This document shows, in pieces, positions 55,306 through 61,939 of a stretch of DNA of 61,939 bases. The notes below the pieces were generated by a model. That model was not told the origin of the DNA. It was given only the letters and a program-made list of their open reading frames with translations, and made no database searches. How positions within the stretch are numbered: position 1 is the stretch's first letter; each line of letters starts with the position of its first letter. Origin of the DNA: Pseudomonadota bacterium (GTDB lineage Bacteria > Desulfobacterota > Desulfobulbia > Desulfobulbales > Desulfocapsaceae); the NCBI GenBank assembly GCA_018820855.1, contig JAHJNL010000021.1:1-61939 (forward strand). The letters run 5' to 3'. A program made the position numbers and the translations under genes.

Positions 55306-56391
55306 TCAATCTCCCAGACAAATTCCAATTTCCCTGGCCGTGAACACCTTATCACTCTTCAGATCAACCTTTTTCCTCGATTTCACCGCATCAGCCAAGG
55401 GGACAGAAGTCATATGGGGAGAAGCCAGAGCCACCATATGGCCGAAAATCCCCTCTTCCACAAGGCGTACAGCAGCAGCCCCAAAGCGCATGGCTAACAA
55501 TCGGTCAAAAGTAGTTGGTGACCCTCCGCGTTGCAGATGGCCCAGGACCAGAGAGCGGGTATCTTTGCCTGTGCATAATCGAATCTCCGAGGCCACCCAT
55601 TCCCCAATTCCACCAAGGACCACTTCACTCCGCCCAAGTTCTCCTTCACCCTTGTTGATTACCTGCCCTCCTCTGGCAGTAGCCCCTTCAGCAACCACCA
55701 CTATGGCATAGTCTTTTTCATGAAGTTCGTTGTCTGTTATTTTTTCACAGACCTTAGCCATATCAAAGGGGATTTCCGGGATAAGAATAACATCGGCCCC
55801 TCCTGAGATACCTGAATATAAGGCAATCCATCCGGAATCCCTGCCCATAACTTCCACGACCATGACCCGATCATGAGATTTGGCTGTTGAATGGAGTTTG
55901 TCCAGAGCCTCAGTGGCCGTTGATACTGCCGTATCAAAGCCAAAGGTCCTGTCCGTGGCCTCAAGATCATTGTCTATGGTCTTGGGGACTCCGACAACCG
56001 GCATTCCTTTTTCCGCAAAACGACGAGCAATTTCAAGACTGCCATCACCACCGATAGCTATGTGGCAATCAAAGCCCATCCGTTTGAAATTATTTAGTAT
56101 TTTATCGGAGACATCGACAATCTGAATCTCTCCGGCCAGATTTACAATGGCTTTGGCAAAAGGATCTCCCTTATTGGTTGAACCGAGAATCGTACCGCCC
56201 GTGGAATATATATCTTCAACATCTTCCAAACCAAGACGTACCAACTCATCCGTATTGAGGAGACCTTTATAGCCGCTTCGACTTCCATATACCTCCCATC
56301 CCCTTCTATAACAGGCATGAACTACGGCATAAATAACTGCATTCAACCCCGGGGCATCGCCACCTCCGGTAGAAATTAATATTTTTTTCAT
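55306..56391 (-). CDS. pfkA: 6-phosphofructokinase, mixed-substrate group III type
   Basis: PFK phosphorylates fructose 6-phosphate in glycolysis. The 361-residue protein has the N-terminal STGGGDAPGLNA, the phosphate-donor loop GGDGSLE, PKTIDNDLEATDRTFGFDTAV, and the PFK signature RSLVLGHLQRGGSPTTFDR. The combination GGDG (Gly at position 104) with PKTIDND (Lys at 124), numbered as in E. coli, marks the mixed-substrate group, where Gly104 usually goes with ATP and Asp104 with pyrophosphate. ATP is thus more likely. A single-gene unit. Confidence 0.93.
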   Translation of the reverse strand: MKKILISTGGGDAPGLNAVIYAVVHACYRRGWEVYGSRSGYKGLLNTDELVRLGLEDVEDIYSTGGTILGSTNKGDPFAKAIVNLAGEIQIVDVSDKILNNFKRMGFDCHIAIGGDGSLEIARRFAEKGMPVVGVPKTIDNDLEATDRTFGFDTAVSTATEALDKLHSTAKSHDRVMVVEVMGRDSGWIALYSGISGGADVILIPEIPFDMAKVCEKITDNELHEKDYAIVVVAEGATARGGQVINKGEGELGRSEVVLGGIGEWVASEIRLCTGKDTRSLVLGHLQRGGSPTTFDRLLAMRFGAAAVRLVEEGIFGHMVALASPHMTSVPLADAVKSRKKVDLKSDKVFTAREIGICLGD

Positions 56392-56603: not shown

Positions 56604-56719
56604 TCATTTTTGAAAATGTTGAAAAGTCTAATCTGACATCCGTATAAAATCAGGGATGTTTTTGACTCGTCAGCTTAATAAAAAACTCTTATTTACTAAT
56701 ATTTCCACAGGAGGATTGC

Positions 56720-57061
56720 ATGTCTGATTTCACAGTAACAGACCAAGCAGTGGTAAAACTCAAGGAATACCTGGAGCAGAATAATATTGATTCTGCTCTT
56801 CGTATAGCCTTGATGCAGGGCGGCTGAGCTGGCCCTTCATTGGGATTGGCTCTGGATGAGCCAAAAGATAACGACAATGTTTTTGAAAACGATGGCCTTA
56901 AATTTCTCGTAGAAAAAGGTCTGATGAGTACCTGCGGTACAGTCCGTGTCGAATTTGTCGACGCAGGCCCCCGCTCCGGATTCGGAATAACTTCCTCCAA
57001 CCCCATTGGCGGAGGTGGAGGATGCAGTTCCGGTTCTTGCGGATCTGGCGGCTGCGGCTGA
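56720..57061 (+). CDS. HesB/IscA-like selenoprotein (UGA at codon 36 read as selenocysteine)
   Basis: A 113-residue A-type iron-sulfur carrier relative. After FTVTDQAVVKLKEYLEQ the HesB fold continues to ALMQGG-U-AGPSLGLALDE, where the in-frame TGA (56825-56827) replaces the first conserved cluster cysteine. The same frame then runs without a stop for 78 residues, with HesB features and a Gly/Cys-rich tail (GGCSSGSCGSGGCG). HesB-like selenoproteins are known in anaerobic Desulfobacterota. AGGAGG precedes ATG 56720. The gene has its own promoter and terminator. The alternative, a pseudogene, is unlikely given the SECIS-like hairpin and intact reading on both sides. Confidence 0.92.
56846..56864 (+). 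promoter_or_regulatory. SECIS-like hairpin downstream of the selenocysteine codon
   Basis: TTGGCTC (56846-56852) pairs perfectly with GAGCCAA (56858-56864) around the loop TGGAT. The loop starts about 25 nt after the UGA, within the window required for bacterial SelB, and it carries G residues as in other bacterial SECIS loops. The hairpin is inside the coding sequence, as is usual in bacteria. Confidence 0.85.
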
Positions 57062-57082
57062 TCCGCTCACTGTATCACCTCA

Positions 57083-57119
57083 CGGTGAATCCCGATCTTG
57101 GGATTCACCGTTTTTTTTT
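57083..57119 (+). terminator. Intrinsic terminator of the selenoprotein gene
   Basis: CGGTGAATCCC (57083-57093) pairs with GGGATTCACCG (57100-57110) around a 6-nt loop and is followed by nine T residues. Confidence 0.92.
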
Positions 57120-57178
57120 GCCCTCCCCTTGCTTGCCTCCCTGCCCGAAAACCTCACTGCAAAAATCTTGCCAAAAAC

Positions 57179-57207
57179 TTGACACCCATTTCCTTCAGCC
57201 TTATTTT
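57179..57207 (+). promoter_or_regulatory. Candidate clpB promoter
   Basis: A perfect -35 TTGACA (57179-57184), a 17-nt spacer and -10 TATTTT (57202-57207). The CCCCATACA that follows resembles a sigma-32 -10 element, but no sigma-32 -35 is at the right distance. No CIRCE repeat is present. Confidence 0.55.
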
Positions 57208-57284
57208 TCCCCATACACACAAAAGCACGGGAAATAGCAGTCCGCTTTTACGAGATTTTCCACTACCCTTGGAGCGAAACAAAT

Positions 57285-59909
57285 ATGCAGTTTGACAAAT
57301 TCACCATCAAATCACAGGAAGCAGTGCAAGCAGCCCAGCAGCTCGCACAAAACTACGGTAACCCAGAGATCGGAGTTGCGCACCTCGTCAAGGCCATCCT
57401 GGAGCAACCCGAAGGTGTAGTTGTTCCGGTCCTTCAAAAAATGGGAATCGAGCCATCAATGGTTCTGATGGAAACTGGGAAACTGATAGAACGAATCCCG
57501 AAAGTTTCCGGAAGCGGTGCAGGGCAGGTCTTCGCCTCCAACGAACTCAGACAGATTCTTGACAAGGCTTTTGCCACTGCCCATCAGATGCAGGACGACT
57601 TTGTCAGCCAGGAGCATCTGTTTCTCACCATTATCCGAGACGGCAAATCAGATAGTGCCAGGATGTTGCAGCGGCTCGGCATAGATGAGAAAAATTTCCT
57701 CACTGCACTCATTACCATCCGCGGCAACCAGCGTGTCACGGACCAGTATCCGGAAGACAAATACCAGGCCCTTGAAAAATATGCCAGAAACCTTACCGAC
57801 ATTGCCAGACAGGGAAAACTTGATCCAGTCATCGGCAGAGACGAGGAGATTCGAAGAATCATCCAGGTCCTTTCACGACGTACAAAAAACAACCCCATCC
57901 TCATTGGCGAGCCTGGTGTCGGAAAAACTGCCATTGCTGAAGGCCTCGCCCAGCGCATCGTCAATGGTGACATCCCAGCCACCCTTGAGGGAAAACAGGT
58001 CCTTTCTCTGGACCTCGGTGCCCTTATTGCCGGAGCGAAATATCGAGGAGAATTCGAAGACCGGCTCAAGGCAGTACTCAAGGAAGTAGAAGAACGAGCA
58101 GGCAATATTATACTTTTCATTGACGAGATCCATACCCTGGTAGGAGCAGGCGCAGCCGAAGGGTCCATGGACGCTTCAAATATGCTGAAACCCGCACTGG
58201 CCCGTGGAGAACTCCATTGCGTTGGTGCCACCACCCTTGACGAATATCGAAAATACATTGAGAAGGATGCAGCCCTTGAACGCAGATTTCAACCTGTCAT
58301 TGTCCAGGAACCCAGTCAAGAAGACACCATTGCCATTCTGCGAGGTATCAAGGAAAAATATGAAGTCCATCACGGTGTGCGCATTCAGGATTCTGCCACC
58401 GTGGCTGCCGTTACCCTCTCCAACCGGTACATCACAGATAGATTCCTTCCGGACAAGGCCATTGACCTCATAGACGAGGCCGCCTCCAAACTACGCATTG
58501 AAATCGACTCCATGCCCACTGAAATTGATGTGCTGGAACGAAAAAAAATCAAGCTTGAGATTGAAAAAGAGGCTCTGAAAAAAGAAAAAGACAAAGCCTC
58601 TCAGGAAAGACTGGCAGAGGTTAACAAAAAACTTGGAGAACTGAACGACACCCTGACCTCCCTGAAAGGACAATGGACCATCGAACGTGATGTCATCCAG
58701 GCCATTCGCCAGACCAAGGCCGCGATCGACGAAGCCCATATGGAAGAACAACGGGAAGAACGCGCAGGCAATCTGAGCAAGGTTGCCGAAATTCGCTATG
58801 GGAAAATCGTCGAGCTTCAGAAAAAACTCGACAACAGCAACCGCAGACTCCAAGAGATCCAGGAAAACTGCCAGATGCTCAAAGAGGAAGTCAGCGCTGA
58901 AGATATCGCCGCCGTTGTTGCCAAGTGGACTGGCATCCCGGTCGACAGACTGCTGCAAGGAGAAAAAGACAAGCTGATTCATGCAGAAGTTGAGCTCGCC
59001 AAGCGCGTTATCGGTCAAAGAGAGGCAATCATATCTGTATCAAATGCCGTGCGTCGTGCACGGGCAGGACTGCAGGACCCGGACAGGCCGTTGGGCTCGT
59101 TCATTTTTCTCGGTCCCACCGGCGTGGGCAAGACCGAGCTGGCACGGAGCCTGGCACACTTTCTCTTTGACTCTGAGCAGGCCATGATCCGTATAGACAT
59201 GTCTGAATTTATGGAAAAGCACTCTGTGGCCAGACTGATTGGAGCGCCCCCCGGATATGTTGGGTACGACGAAGGCGGCTACCTCACGGAAGCGGTACGC
59301 AGACGTCCTTACGCCGTCATCCTCCTTGATGAGATTGAAAAGGCCCATCCGGATGTCTTCAATGTCCTTCTTCAGGTACTTGACGATGGCCGTATGACCG
59401 ACGGCAAGGGAAGAACTGTGGATTTCAGAAATACCATCATGATCATGACTTCCAATCTTGGTAGCGACTTGATCATGAAAATGGCAGAAAACCGCGAGAG
59501 CGAAAAGGCCATTCACCTCCAGATTGAAGAGATTCTCCACCAGCAATTCAAACCGGAGTTCCTGAATCGGGTTGATGAGACCATCATCTTCCACAGCCTT
59601 TCCAAGGAAAACATGTTCGGCATCATCGACATCCAGCTGGCAAGACTGAAAAACAGGCTGGATGAAAGAAAAATCTCCTTACAGGTCAGCGACAACGCCA
59701 AAAAGTTCCTCGTGGACATCGGCTACAATCCACTTTATGGAGCACGACCACTCAAACGGGCAATCCAGAGTCACCTCGAAAACCCGCTGGCCATGGAAAT
59801 TCTCGAAGGAAGATTCCTCGAAGGCAGTAGCGTTACAGTAAACAGCAGCCCAAGCGGACTTACTTTCAGTGCAGGCCCTAGCGAACCAGACAGCCCACAA
59901 CCTCTCTAA
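57285..59909 (+). CDS. clpB: ATP-dependent disaggregase ClpB
   Basis: ClpB pulls proteins out of aggregates in cooperation with DnaK. The 874-residue protein has the N-domain (1-145) starting [22 protein letters not shown]-1 with Walker [10 protein letters not shown] (about 206), the coiled-coil middle domain (about 410-520) that distinguishes ClpB from ClpA/C, AAA-2 with GPTGVGKTE (about 608) and SNLGSD at the sensor region, and the C-terminal domain. A single-gene unit with promoter and terminator. Confidence 0.97.
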
Positions 59910-59931
59910 AACAAGAAGGCCGGATGAGAGA

Positions 59932-59973
59932 GGGGGAAGCGTGCAATGGCAACGCTTTCCCCTTTCTTTTTTA
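59932..59973 (+). terminator. Intrinsic terminator of clpB
   Basis: A 10-bp stem, 59932-59941 with 59953-59962 and one G-U pair, is followed by a T-rich run TTTCTTTTTT. It lies 23 nt after the clpB stop codon. Confidence 0.85.
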
Positions 59974-60044
59974 TTATGGATATGGTTTGCATAGTGCTGT
60001 CAGAAAAAATACGTTTCCTGTCAATAGTTAAGTGAGGAGATCCC

Positions 60045-60491
60045 ATGACTGCACCGGACTGCTGTGTTACCATGGCCCATATGATGATGCCTCAGCACGC
60101 CAATCCCCAGGGCAACGTGCACGGTGGGGTTGTCATGAAGTTTATTGACGATGCAGCAGCCGTTGTCGCCATGCGCCACAGCCGCAGCACTGTTGTTACA
60201 GCCGCTGTCGAACAACTCTCTTTCCACCACCCGGTGTTTATCGGCAATCTTCTCAGCCTGAAGGCCTCCCTGAACATGACCGGCCGCACATCCATGGAAA
60301 TCGGGGTCAGAGTAGAAGCCGAGAACCCGCTCAATGGAAAGATTGTTCACATTGCCTCTGCCTACCTCACCTTTGTGGCCATAGACGAGAACCATCAACC
60401 AAAAAGTATCAACCCGTGGCTTCCCGACACCCCTGAGAGCAAGAGAAGGGAACTGGACGCAAGAGCCCGCAAAAAAAGAAAAAACTCTTAA
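60045..60491 (+). CDS. Acyl-CoA thioesterase, hotdog fold (YciA-like)
   Basis: A 148-residue hotdog-fold enzyme predicted to hydrolyse acyl-CoAs. The conserved N-terminal segment MPQHANPQGNVHGGVVMKFID (about residues 15-35) carries the catalytic-region Asn/His/Gly pattern, and the DDAAAVVAMRH helix and VEQLSFHHPV follow. A basic tail ends the protein. GAGGAGA precedes ATG 60045. The next gene starts 34 nt downstream, so the two may share a message. Confidence 0.9.
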   Translation: MTAPDCCVTMAHMMMPQHANPQGNVHGGVVMKFIDDAAAVVAMRHSRSTVVTAAVEQLSFHHPVFIGNLLSLKASLNMTGRTSMEIGVRVEAENPLNGKIVHIASAYLTFVAIDENHQPKSINPWLPDTPESKRRELDARARKKRKNS

Positions 60492-60525
60492 CAACATAAC
60501 AACAACTAAAACAAAAGGAGAGAGA

Positions 60526-60810
60526 ATGAGCGCAGATATCAGCGATCTCACAATACAATACGAGGAAGAAGGACAAATCCTGGTAAAAGAACTGGATAAG
60601 GAAATCCTGACCAAAGGTGCCTGGGCAACTGTGATCTTCCGTTACCAGAACTGGAGTCGTACCAACAAGGAATTCAGCAAAGAGATGTACACCATCAGAC
60701 GCTACCAGAAACGCAACGGAGAGTATATTTCCAAGTCCAAATTCAATATCTCCAGCGCTGATCAGGCAAAAAAGATTATTGCTGTTCTGCAAAAATGGAC
60801 CGAAGAATAA
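60526..60810 (+). CDS. Small conserved-looking protein of unknown function
   Basis: A 94-residue, soluble, charged protein with a good AAAGGAGAGAGA site. After an acidic N-terminus it has a beta-rich part (GAWATVIFRYQNW), a segment with repeated basic and aromatic residues (MYTIRRYQKRNGEYI) and a C-terminal helix (ADQAKKIIAVLQKW). The order recalls PC4/YdbC-type single-stranded nucleic-acid-binding proteins, but this is a weak impression. It lies between the thioesterase and the TauE-type gene, 15 nt before the latter. Confidence 0.7.
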   Translation: MSADISDLTIQYEEEGQILVKELDKEILTKGAWATVIFRYQNWSRTNKEFSKEMYTIRRYQKRNGEYISKSKFNISSADQAKKIIAVLQKWTEE

Positions 60811-60825
60811 AAGAGGGGAGTAACC

Positions 60826-61728
60826 ATGTATTTCCCAGTGGCAGACTTAGAGATATCGCCTTTTATTCCGCCACTGGTTGCCTGCTGCATCTCATTTTTC
60901 ACTTCTATGGCCGGAGTCTCAGGGGCCTTTCTTCTCCTCCCTTTCCAGGTCAGCGTCCTGGGCTTTAACAGCCCGGCAGTCAGTTCCACCAACCATCTTT
61001 TCAACGTCATAGCCATCCCCAGCGGTATCTACCGTTTCATCAAGGAAGGTCGCATGGTATGGCCGCTGACCTGGCTGGTTGTCATAGGCACCCTGCCAGG
61101 AGTTCTGGGAGGTGTCTTGATACGGGTTAGCTACCTCCCCTCCCCTAAGGCTTTCAAGATTTTTGTCGGTCTGGTTCTGCTGTACATCGGCATAAAACTA
61201 CTCTTGGACATCATTCACAAAAAACAAAAAAGAAAACAGGCCGAACCTCAACAACAGAATGAAGCCAGCAAATTTGCTATAAGCGACACACGACTCACCT
61301 GGAAATCCATGCAATATAGATTCGAAGGAACCATGTACCAGGCCAACACGTTCTCCATCATAAGCCTCAGTCTGATCGTTGGTCTCGTTGGCGGCATATA
61401 CGGTATTGGCGGCGGAGCAATAATCGCCCCCTTCTTTGTCACCTTCTTTCATTTACCAATCCATACCGTTGCCGGGGCAAGTCTTATGGGTACCCTTATT
61501 ACCTCAGCTGCCGGTGTTGCTTTTTTTCAAATCCTGTCCTGTTTCCCCCTTGCCGCCATGCAACAGATTGCTCCCGACTACCGTCTCGGCCTTCTCTTTG
61601 GGGCCGGCGGGGCTGTAGGCATTTATCTCGGAGCCCGAGCCCAACGTTACTTTTCAGCCAGGCTTATAAAAATAATACTGGCATGCGGCCTCTTCTTCAC
61701 AGCCGGTAGTTACCTCATCCCCAAATAG
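60826..61728 (+). CDS. TauE/SafE-family anion exporter (second copy)
   Basis: A 300-residue membrane protein with about eight hydrophobic segments and the family pattern in two halves: the first around VACCISFFTSMAGVSGAFLLLP and the second around VGLVGGIYGIGGGAIIAPFF (about residue 190), with a hydrophilic middle. It is longer than and clearly distinct from the copy at 40895. A sulfur-anion export role is inferred from the family. GGGGAG precedes the ATG. It follows the 94-residue gene by 15 nt, so they are probably co-transcribed. Confidence 0.9.
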   Translation: MYFPVADLEISPFIPPLVACCISFFTSMAGVSGAFLLLPFQVSVLGFNSPAVSSTNHLFNVIAIPSGIYRFIKEGRMVWPLTWLVVIGTLPGVLGGVLIRVSYLPSPKAFKIFVGLVLLYIGIKLLLDIIHKKQKRKQAEPQQQNEASKFAISDTRLTWKSMQYRFEGTMYQANTFSIISLSLIVGLVGGIYGIGGGAIIAPFFVTFFHLPIHTVAGASLMGTLITSAAGVAFFQILSCFPLAAMQQIAPDYRLGLLFGAGGAVGIYLGARAQRYFSARLIKIILACGLFFTAGSYLIPK

Positions 61729-61908
61729 AGCCTAAAAATAAATCACGCTACATCAGCACCTTTCCAATAAAGGTAAACTCTTTTACAAAACAATGTCCTT
61801 TCTCATTGACAGTGTCTGAGTGATTGTGTAGGTTGCCTCGGTCCTTGAGAGAGAGACGATTTGCAAAAAGCGCCTCTCAAAAATCGACAAGCCAGGTCAA
61901 TTTAAATA

Positions 61909-61937
61909 TTGACAAGAATGTTTGGCTAGAGTAAATT
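61909..61937 (+). promoter_or_regulatory. Promoter for a gene beyond the right edge
   Basis: A perfect -35 TTGACA (61909-61914), a 17-nt spacer and -10 TAAATT (61932-61937), two bases from the window end. A second TTGACA lies near 61807, with a poor -10. Tandem promoters would suit an rRNA or other highly expressed unit, but the gene itself is not visible. Confidence 0.5.
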
Positions 61938-61939
61938 AG

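Follow-up and report, generated by a model that had tools for sequence, protein, structure and literature searches.

In-frame UGA at the first ligand position of an IscA/HesB-type gene in a Desulfocapsaceae genome

Introduction

Does the TGA that crosses a short HesB-like reading frame in a Desulfocapsaceae contig encode selenocysteine (Sec), and if it does, what might such a protein do in the cell? The frame lies in a DNA stretch of 61,939 nt (contig JAHJNL010000021.1), which is referred to as the window. A preceding sequence-only reading had proposed a HesB-type selenoprotein and stated that such proteins had been listed before with their function unknown, which agrees with the literature (PMC1794560, PMC13188914, PMC11097638, PMC1914089). 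HesB-like selenoproteins are also found in PMC1242214 and in tables of PMC2933860 and PMC9312934. Members from Deltaproteobacteria, with Desulfovibrio and Geobacter, were listed in 2006 (PMC1794560), and DVU_1382 of Desulfovibrio vulgaris was listed as a HesB family protein with TGA (PMC1914089). The HesB-like protein of Methanococcus maripaludis was found by mutagenesis and 75Se labeling, and its function was called unclear (PMC11097638).

HesB-like selenoproteins have thus been known since 2005–2007, and the window gene adds one more member. Selenoprotein catalogues have included this family for two decades without assigning it a function. If the protein were an Fe–S carrier, Sec would be used as a transient cluster ligand, which would help explain how anaerobes thought to be without A-type carriers manage.

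Results and discussion

Reading frame and local signals

The coding sequence occupies positions 56720–57061 of the forward strand and encodes 113 residues with Sec at residue 36 and a terminal TGA. A Shine–Dalgarno sequence AGGAGG (56709–56714) stands 5 nt upstream of the ATG at 56720, which bears out the strong ribosome binding site of the sequence-only reading. The boundaries and the in-frame TGA at 56825–56827 that it had given were read directly in the sequence, and its figure of 78 codons beyond this TGA is correct if the stop is counted, since 77 sense codons separate codon 36 from the terminal TGA at 57059–57061. With TGA translated as U, the product reads MSDFTVTDQAVVKLKEYLEQNNIDSALRIALMQGG-U-AGPSLGLALDEPK...GGGGGCSSGSCGSGGCG, and the motif around the Sec residue is GG-U-A-G-P, in which the Gly preceding U was imposed by the search pattern used for the homologues. 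The translated product contains no UxxC or CxxU motif. Its C-terminal tail (residues 96–113, 57005–57058) is rich in Gly, Ser, and Cys and carries Cys102, Cys107, and Cys112. Downstream, at 57082–57111 (+), an intrinsic terminator-like stem–loop is followed by a T run (one found; shuffled sequences gave a mean of 0.6 with a standard deviation of 0.8), and the gene thus probably forms a transcription unit of its own.

Codon 36 and selection among homologues

The homologue set comprised 177 distinct genes from the window, L015, and L019–L218, with scores of at least 50 bits and identical genes counted once; since its profile was built from close relatives, distant forms are under-sampled. At codon 36, the alternation of Sec and Cys that the preceding reading had proposed to look for was found, with TGA in 134 genes and Cys in 43 (TGC in 24, TGT in 19), and neither TAA nor TAG occurred. 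Past codon 36, the next stop in the 134 TGA genes was TGA in 96, TAA in 25, and TAG in 12, with one end lost at a contig end. A second Sec at the C-terminus was considered and rejected, because TAA or TAG stands there in 37 of the 133 TGA genes whose end could be read, which identifies the terminal TGA as a stop. Comparison with 65 TGA homologues gave pN/pS values of 0.166 before and 0.209 after the in-frame TGA, indicating that the downstream part is under purifying selection as protein. Because codon 36 alternates between Sec and Cys and the protein is conserved beyond it, the close homologues do not present the picture of an ordinary stop with nothing conserved behind it.

The third residue after U was Pro in all 134 TGA genes and in 24 of the 43 Cys genes. 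Three to five tail cysteines were present in 132 of the 134 TGA genes, the exceptions being L079, which runs into a contig end, and L173, which has a single tail Cys.

The nearest named loci belong to Desulfocapsa and Desulfocapsaceae. Culturable relatives with the gene include Desulfopila aestuarii (L090) and Desulforhopalus singaporensis (L137). Within the family group of the window, 86 of 93 genomes matched the model NF038090, and a hand count found a TGA copy in 82 of these 86 among the matches listed; those without one among the matches listed were G022, G062, G066, and G083. Four listed matches with at most 103.9 bits (in G088, G040, G039, and G071) have TAG or TAA instead of TGA somewhere, and each of these genomes also carries a TGA copy. 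In the phylum-wide draw, 171 of 296 genomes matched NF038090, 131 of them over the cut-off; among the matches listed, at least 116 genomes had a TGA copy and 11 had only matches without TGA. A tRNA-Sec match was present in 268 of the 296 genomes and in 111 of the 116 listed with a TGA copy. The five others were G098, G145, G238, and G294, which are draft assemblies of 120–720 contigs, and G363, which was scored negative because it did not appear among the tabulated matches. Two of the 11 listed genomes without a TGA copy, G195 and G271, also had no tRNA-Sec match. The Fisher test of tRNA-Sec in the 116 listed TGA-copy genomes versus the rest (P = 0.015) is weak because nearly all genomes have the trait. 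The search of viral contigs found no relatives, and five plasmid records matched, all with less than 60% identity, one of them a 2.6-Mb Acetoanaerobium record.

SECIS hairpin

Downstream of the UGA, the mRNA can form a seven-pair hairpin, UUGGCUC-UGGAU-GAGCCAA (56846–56864, +), whose loop is separated from the UGA by 25 nt and has G as its second base. For bacterial SECIS elements, the published limits are 16–37 nt between UGA and loop and a G among the first two loop bases. To separate RNA structure from protein coding, a 27-nt segment spanning the fifth to thirteenth codons past Sec was folded and compared with random synonymous codons taken from genes of similar third-position G+C. In 127 TGA genes, the folding z averaged −2.14, lying below −1 in 122 of them and never exceeding 0; the average in the 43 Cys genes was −0.22. 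The control segments scored −0.01 and −0.05 (two downstream stretches) and −0.64 (one upstream stretch) in TGA genes; the corresponding values in Cys genes were −0.51, −0.45, and −0.47. This 27-nt synonymous-codon control is the informative test; a 71-nt fold compared with dinucleotide shuffles yielded an unimpressive z of −1.0. Rfam gave no match over the SECIS region and two chance-level matches nearby.

In an alignment of 72 distinct TGA sequences, pairing was possible in 94.9% of cells, compared with at most 52% for slid partners, and two-sided changes occurred in three of six pairs (8 cells versus a shuffle mean of 0.6). In 39 Cys sequences (of 40 rows, L178 being omitted as out of register), 50.4% of cells could pair, compared with 35%–48% for slid partners; the covariation measure of the Cys sequences also exceeded all 500 shuffles, an excess that relatedness alone can produce. 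Judged from these sequence comparisons, the hairpin is a bacterial SECIS element, kept in TGA genes beyond the needs of the protein and mostly lost in Cys genes.

The same stem–loop was retained in two Cys genes, L020 and L187, which look like recent Sec-to-Cys changes. L020 shares its genome, G003, with a TGA copy. L187, from the genome G271 without a tRNA-Sec match, has the SECIS-like hairpin GGCUC-UAGAU-GAGCC and TGA genes as its neighbors in the tree; its hairpin is likely a fossil SECIS. In 2006, a remnant SECIS had been described in a HesB-like gene with Cys from Desulfitobacterium (PMC1794560).

Sec insertion machinery of the source genome

The preceding reading had named selA, selB, selC, and selD as the genes to search for, and all four were present in the source genome, so a missing Sec insertion system does not speak against the proposal. 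The tRNA-Sec (selC) lies on contig C93 (73.4 bits; ARAGORN anticodon TCA), SelB on C78 (367.7 bits), SelA on C5 (609.5 bits), and SelD on C91 (366.6 bits). The selD frame contains one in-frame TGA whose surroundings read ASGUAAK, and SelD is therefore itself a selenoprotein. The family match, the complete insertion system, and the conserved protein past the TGA together uphold the HesB-type selenoprotein of the first reading, and, as far as sequence can tell, this is a real selenoprotein gene.

Near selB lies a gene for an Mrp/ApbC-type Fe–S carrier ATPase (L017:8537–9619, −), with MrpORP as the best model at 373.6 bits, below the cut-off of 450. Its Gly/Ser/Cys-rich ends, SSSCGSSSCSSGSKC and CGCGGGSCNPNTCDC, resemble the HesB tail.

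Family assignment and fold

The product matched NF038090 (IscA_HesB_Se) over residues 4–104 with 138.3 bits (cut-off 85) and PF01521 with 32.9 bits (gathering score 26.3). It shares with the NF038090 family the U/C alternation at the ligand position, and nothing notable sets it apart. TIGR00049 reached 53.9 bits, short of its cut-off of 58.8. The model TIGR01911 (HesB_rel_seleno) reached 49.7 bits, under its cut-off of 66.35, so the gene falls under the sister model. The TIGR01911 group includes proteins of Methanococcus maripaludis, Desulfovibrio vulgaris (DVU_1382), Geobacter sulfurreducens, and Syntrophobacter, and has in common with the window gene the Sec in a UxGP motif, which is the motif given for HesB-like selenoproteins in a 2026 review (PMC13188914). 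Scores against the IscA, SufA, and ErpA equivalog models were far below the cut-offs (40.9 vs. 150.6, 42.1 vs. 136.2, and 31.9 vs. 117 bits).

Five PDB chains matched by sequence, namely IscA (yfhF, twice), SufA, AQ_1857, and HI1723, the closest being 1nwb (E = 6.9e-14). An AlphaFold2 model computed from alignment A4 with 30 rows had a mean pLDDT of 75.3 and a pTM of 0.59; its tail is disordered, with pLDDT below 50 at residues 98–106 and 108–111. The top Foldseek matches of the model were IscA 1r94 (E = 2.5e-7), IscA 1s98, SufA 2d2a, AQ_1857, and IscA 1x0g. VIA-align superposed it on SufA 2d2a (Z 12.2, 1.9 Å over 91 residues), on the [2Fe-2S]-bound IscA 1x0g (Z 11.8, 2.0 Å over 93), and on 2k4z (Z 11.0, 4.0 Å over 100 residues), which is DsrR, an IscA-like protein of a dsr cluster.

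The window protein resembles the canonical A-type carriers (IscA, SufA, ErpA, and the nitrogenase HesB) in its fold, first ligand position, and Cys-containing C-terminal tail, but has Sec where they have Cys. U36 aligns with Cys35 of E. coli IscA, as expected from the earlier placement of the TGA at the first conserved cluster cysteine. In seven canonical carriers of the phylum, the residue after CxG is L, H, M, F, or Y and the tail has CGCG, whereas the window protein has UxGP and three spaced cysteines in a CX4CX4C arrangement rather than CGC. According to the alignment and the predicted structure, the UGA takes the place of the cysteine that serves as first ligand in the A-type carrier fold, and the product is almost certainly a selenoprotein with this fold.

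Genomic neighborhood of the Sec gene

The Sec gene is flanked by a divergent pfkA (55306–56391, −; TIGR02483, 461.4 vs. 430.55 bits) and by clpB downstream (57285–59909, +; TIGR03346, 1347.2 vs. 1232.1 bits). Both lay within 7 kb of 64 of 80 TGA copies (the window plus L079–L158), and the remaining 16 had clpB only (8), pfkA only (7), or neither (1). When ORFs were clustered around 40 phylum-wide loci and the window, no conserved operon partner of the Sec gene was found. The biggest clusters, two-component regulators (9 loci), ABC ATPases (7), and a mixed MutY/endonuclease III/Nudix cluster (5), represent broad superfamilies that single linkage had merged, and their names were given by eye from the first residues. 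In the same set, pfkA and clpB occurred in four loci each, and Macro-domain, RdgB-like, and TPR genes adjoined a Sec or Cys gene in three loci each. Since no partner was conserved in the 40 loci, the Sec gene was taken as stand-alone, and its neighborhood gives the Sec form no tie to Fe–S assembly.

Cys paralogues, tandem pairs, and canonical carriers

The source genome also carries a Cys paralogue on contig C99 (L015:6984–7328; NF038090, 123.6 bits). It belongs to the same family and has SGG-C-SGP at the ligand site, but it differs from the window gene by its Cys, by an extra SGCGCGG insert, and by its position downstream of hdrA-mvhD. This Cys branch with the insert lies directly 3′ of hdrA-mvhD on the same strand (L015:3243–7328), where a double HdrA of 1025 aa is followed by an MvhD-like gene. 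Among 20 fetched Cys-type regions (L199–L218), chosen from matches without TGA in the family-group and phylum listings, hdrA-mvhD was close upstream of the Cys gene in 11 and not close in 9. A DsbC-like gene follows some of the Cys paralogues (L015, L200, L201, and L215).

Ten tandem pairs, defined as genes on the same strand with starts within 2.6 kb, were present in the 177 genes: nine Sec/Cys pairs (L027, L051, L052, L053, L060, L069, L072, L075, and L152, the last from Desulfogranum marinum) in both orders, one Cys–Cys pair, and no Sec–Sec pair. Further neighboring matches with and without TGA were seen in the genome listings of G046, G129, G213, G235, G356, and G374. A quick tree of 117 rows, built from few columns and with many unresolved forks, required 11 Sec/Cys changes, at least five of them forced by well-supported branches, and placed tandem pairs at three or more separate places. 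Sec rows stood at the base of the family in this tree, which is consistent with a 2006 tabulation that counts two Sec-to-Cys events and no Cys-to-Sec event among HesB-like proteins (PMC1794560, Table 1). One genome of the same genus (G022), 100% complete and with tRNA-Sec, had only the Cys paralogue and no Sec copy, so the Sec copy is dispensable there.

Canonical A-type carriers, defined as PF01521 matches of at least 54 bits without TGA, were found in at least 15 of the 296 phylum genomes, and only one of these 15 (G170) also had an NF038090 match over the cut-off. The counts of this large PF01521 scan are lower bounds, because it missed the TGA copy of the window, which the single-genome scan found. 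With the lists read by eye, the hypergeometric P for this near-exclusion was 0.0016 by genome and 0.046 by family group, and the near-exclusion is thus weaker by family group. Many genomes of the phylum have neither the NF038090 family nor a canonical carrier; ATC proteins were reported to be absent in many Delta-Proteobacteria (PMC2682760). In the open-access PMC literature, as far as its text was accessible, we found neither Sec/Cys tandem HesB pairs, nor HesB beside hdrA-mvhD, nor the near-exclusion between the NF038090 family and canonical carriers. The tandem pairs, the near-exclusion, and the hdrA-mvhD link are leads, not proofs.

Proposed function and alternatives

We consider it reasonably probable that the Sec protein acts as an Fe–S or iron carrier. 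A dimer of the A-type carrier would accept an Fe–S cluster or iron from a scaffold, which Sec36 of the globular part would hold together with cysteines in the flexible C-terminal tail before it is handed on to apo-proteins. A selenolate is a softer donor than a thiolate and is largely deprotonated at neutral pH; in anaerobic, sulfide-rich cells, it might allow faster cluster binding or exchange. The three to five tail cysteines count for this reading, since they lie where A-type proteins keep their two other ligands (PMC7144353). Indirect support comes from the canonical carriers, which are rare and nearly exclusive with the NF038090 family. HdrA-type proteins are rich in Fe–S clusters, and the position of the Cys branch beside hdrA fits a carrier as well. 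We counted against a carrier that the Sec gene has no conserved partner in 40 loci, that the Sec copy is dispensable in the genome with the Cys paralogue only, that the CGCG tail motif of IscA is not kept, that the near-exclusion weakens by family group and many genomes have neither kind, and that 9 of the 20 Cys-type regions have no close hdrA-mvhD. Disruption of the Methanococcus HesB-like gene, which did not impair nitrogen fixation (PMC11097638), was counted on the same side as a sign of dispensability.

Alternatively, the protein might be a selenol redox enzyme on a HesB fold, in which Sec36 would react with peroxide, disulfide, or persulfide, the tail cysteines would resolve the reacted Sec36, and no cluster would be carried. 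A review deems redox roles likely for most uncharacterized selenoproteins (PMC13188914), the tail offers three or more cysteines, and a DsbC-like gene follows some Cys paralogues. The Pro at U+3, fixed in every TGA gene and in little more than half of the Cys genes, may likewise reflect a chemistry peculiar to Sec. However, the product lacks the UxxC and CxxU motifs, all good-scoring fold and sequence matches are A-type carriers or their relatives, and the Cys branch is linked mainly to HdrA-MvhD, which makes the redox enzyme rather unlikely in our view.

Less likely still is a carrier of metal, metalloid, persulfide, or selenium, in which Sec36 and the Cys tail would bind soft metals, or sulfur or selenium bound for another enzyme. 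Sec has been suggested as a possible metal ligand in some other uncharacterized selenoproteins (PMC13188914), and DsrR is among the fold matches; against this, no gene family adjoins the Sec gene in more than three to four of the 40 loci and the window once pfkA, clpB, and the broad superfamilies of regulators and ABC ATPases are set aside. The idea that the TGA is a true stop, an error in sequencing, or part of a general stop-to-sense code change can practically be dismissed, since the five listed TGA-copy genomes without a tRNA-Sec match (four of them drafts) are outweighed by the occurrence of this TGA in 134 distinct genes throughout a phylum, a pN/pS of 0.21 past it, a SECIS signal in the TGA genes, and terminal stops that are still TGA in 96 of these genes and TAA or TAG in 37.

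The Fe–S or iron carrier can be extended to a wider, tentative picture, which we regard as doubtful when taken as a whole. The Sec protein and its Cys relatives would together form the A-type carrier system of the phylum, with Sec as the ancestral state, a selenolate-ligated cluster, and one Cys branch dedicated to HdrA-MvhD. The tandem Sec/Cys pairs would have arisen by repeated tandem duplication and would act as mixed dimers, like ISCA1–ISCA2, or as a selenium-dependent switch, and the system would have been hidden from earlier surveys by its TGA and its sequence divergence. The tandem pairs and the hdrA-mvhD link provide concrete targets for testing.

Other features of the window

Within the window, 181 frames with one TGA were reduced to 15 candidate selenoprotein genes, from which the known gene was recovered, the other 14 being unconvincing by eye. 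In many relatives, as in the window (57062–61939), the contig ends about 3–5 kb past the Sec gene in the direction of clpB, and something that breaks assembly may lie beyond this end; no tRNA or Rfam match was found at the end of the window. At the opposite end, four tRNA genes (Thr, Gly, Tyr, and Thr) lie on the reverse strand within positions 1–767, and positions 1–219 hold an elongation-factor-like fragment whose score equals that of a fragment at the end of contig C105.
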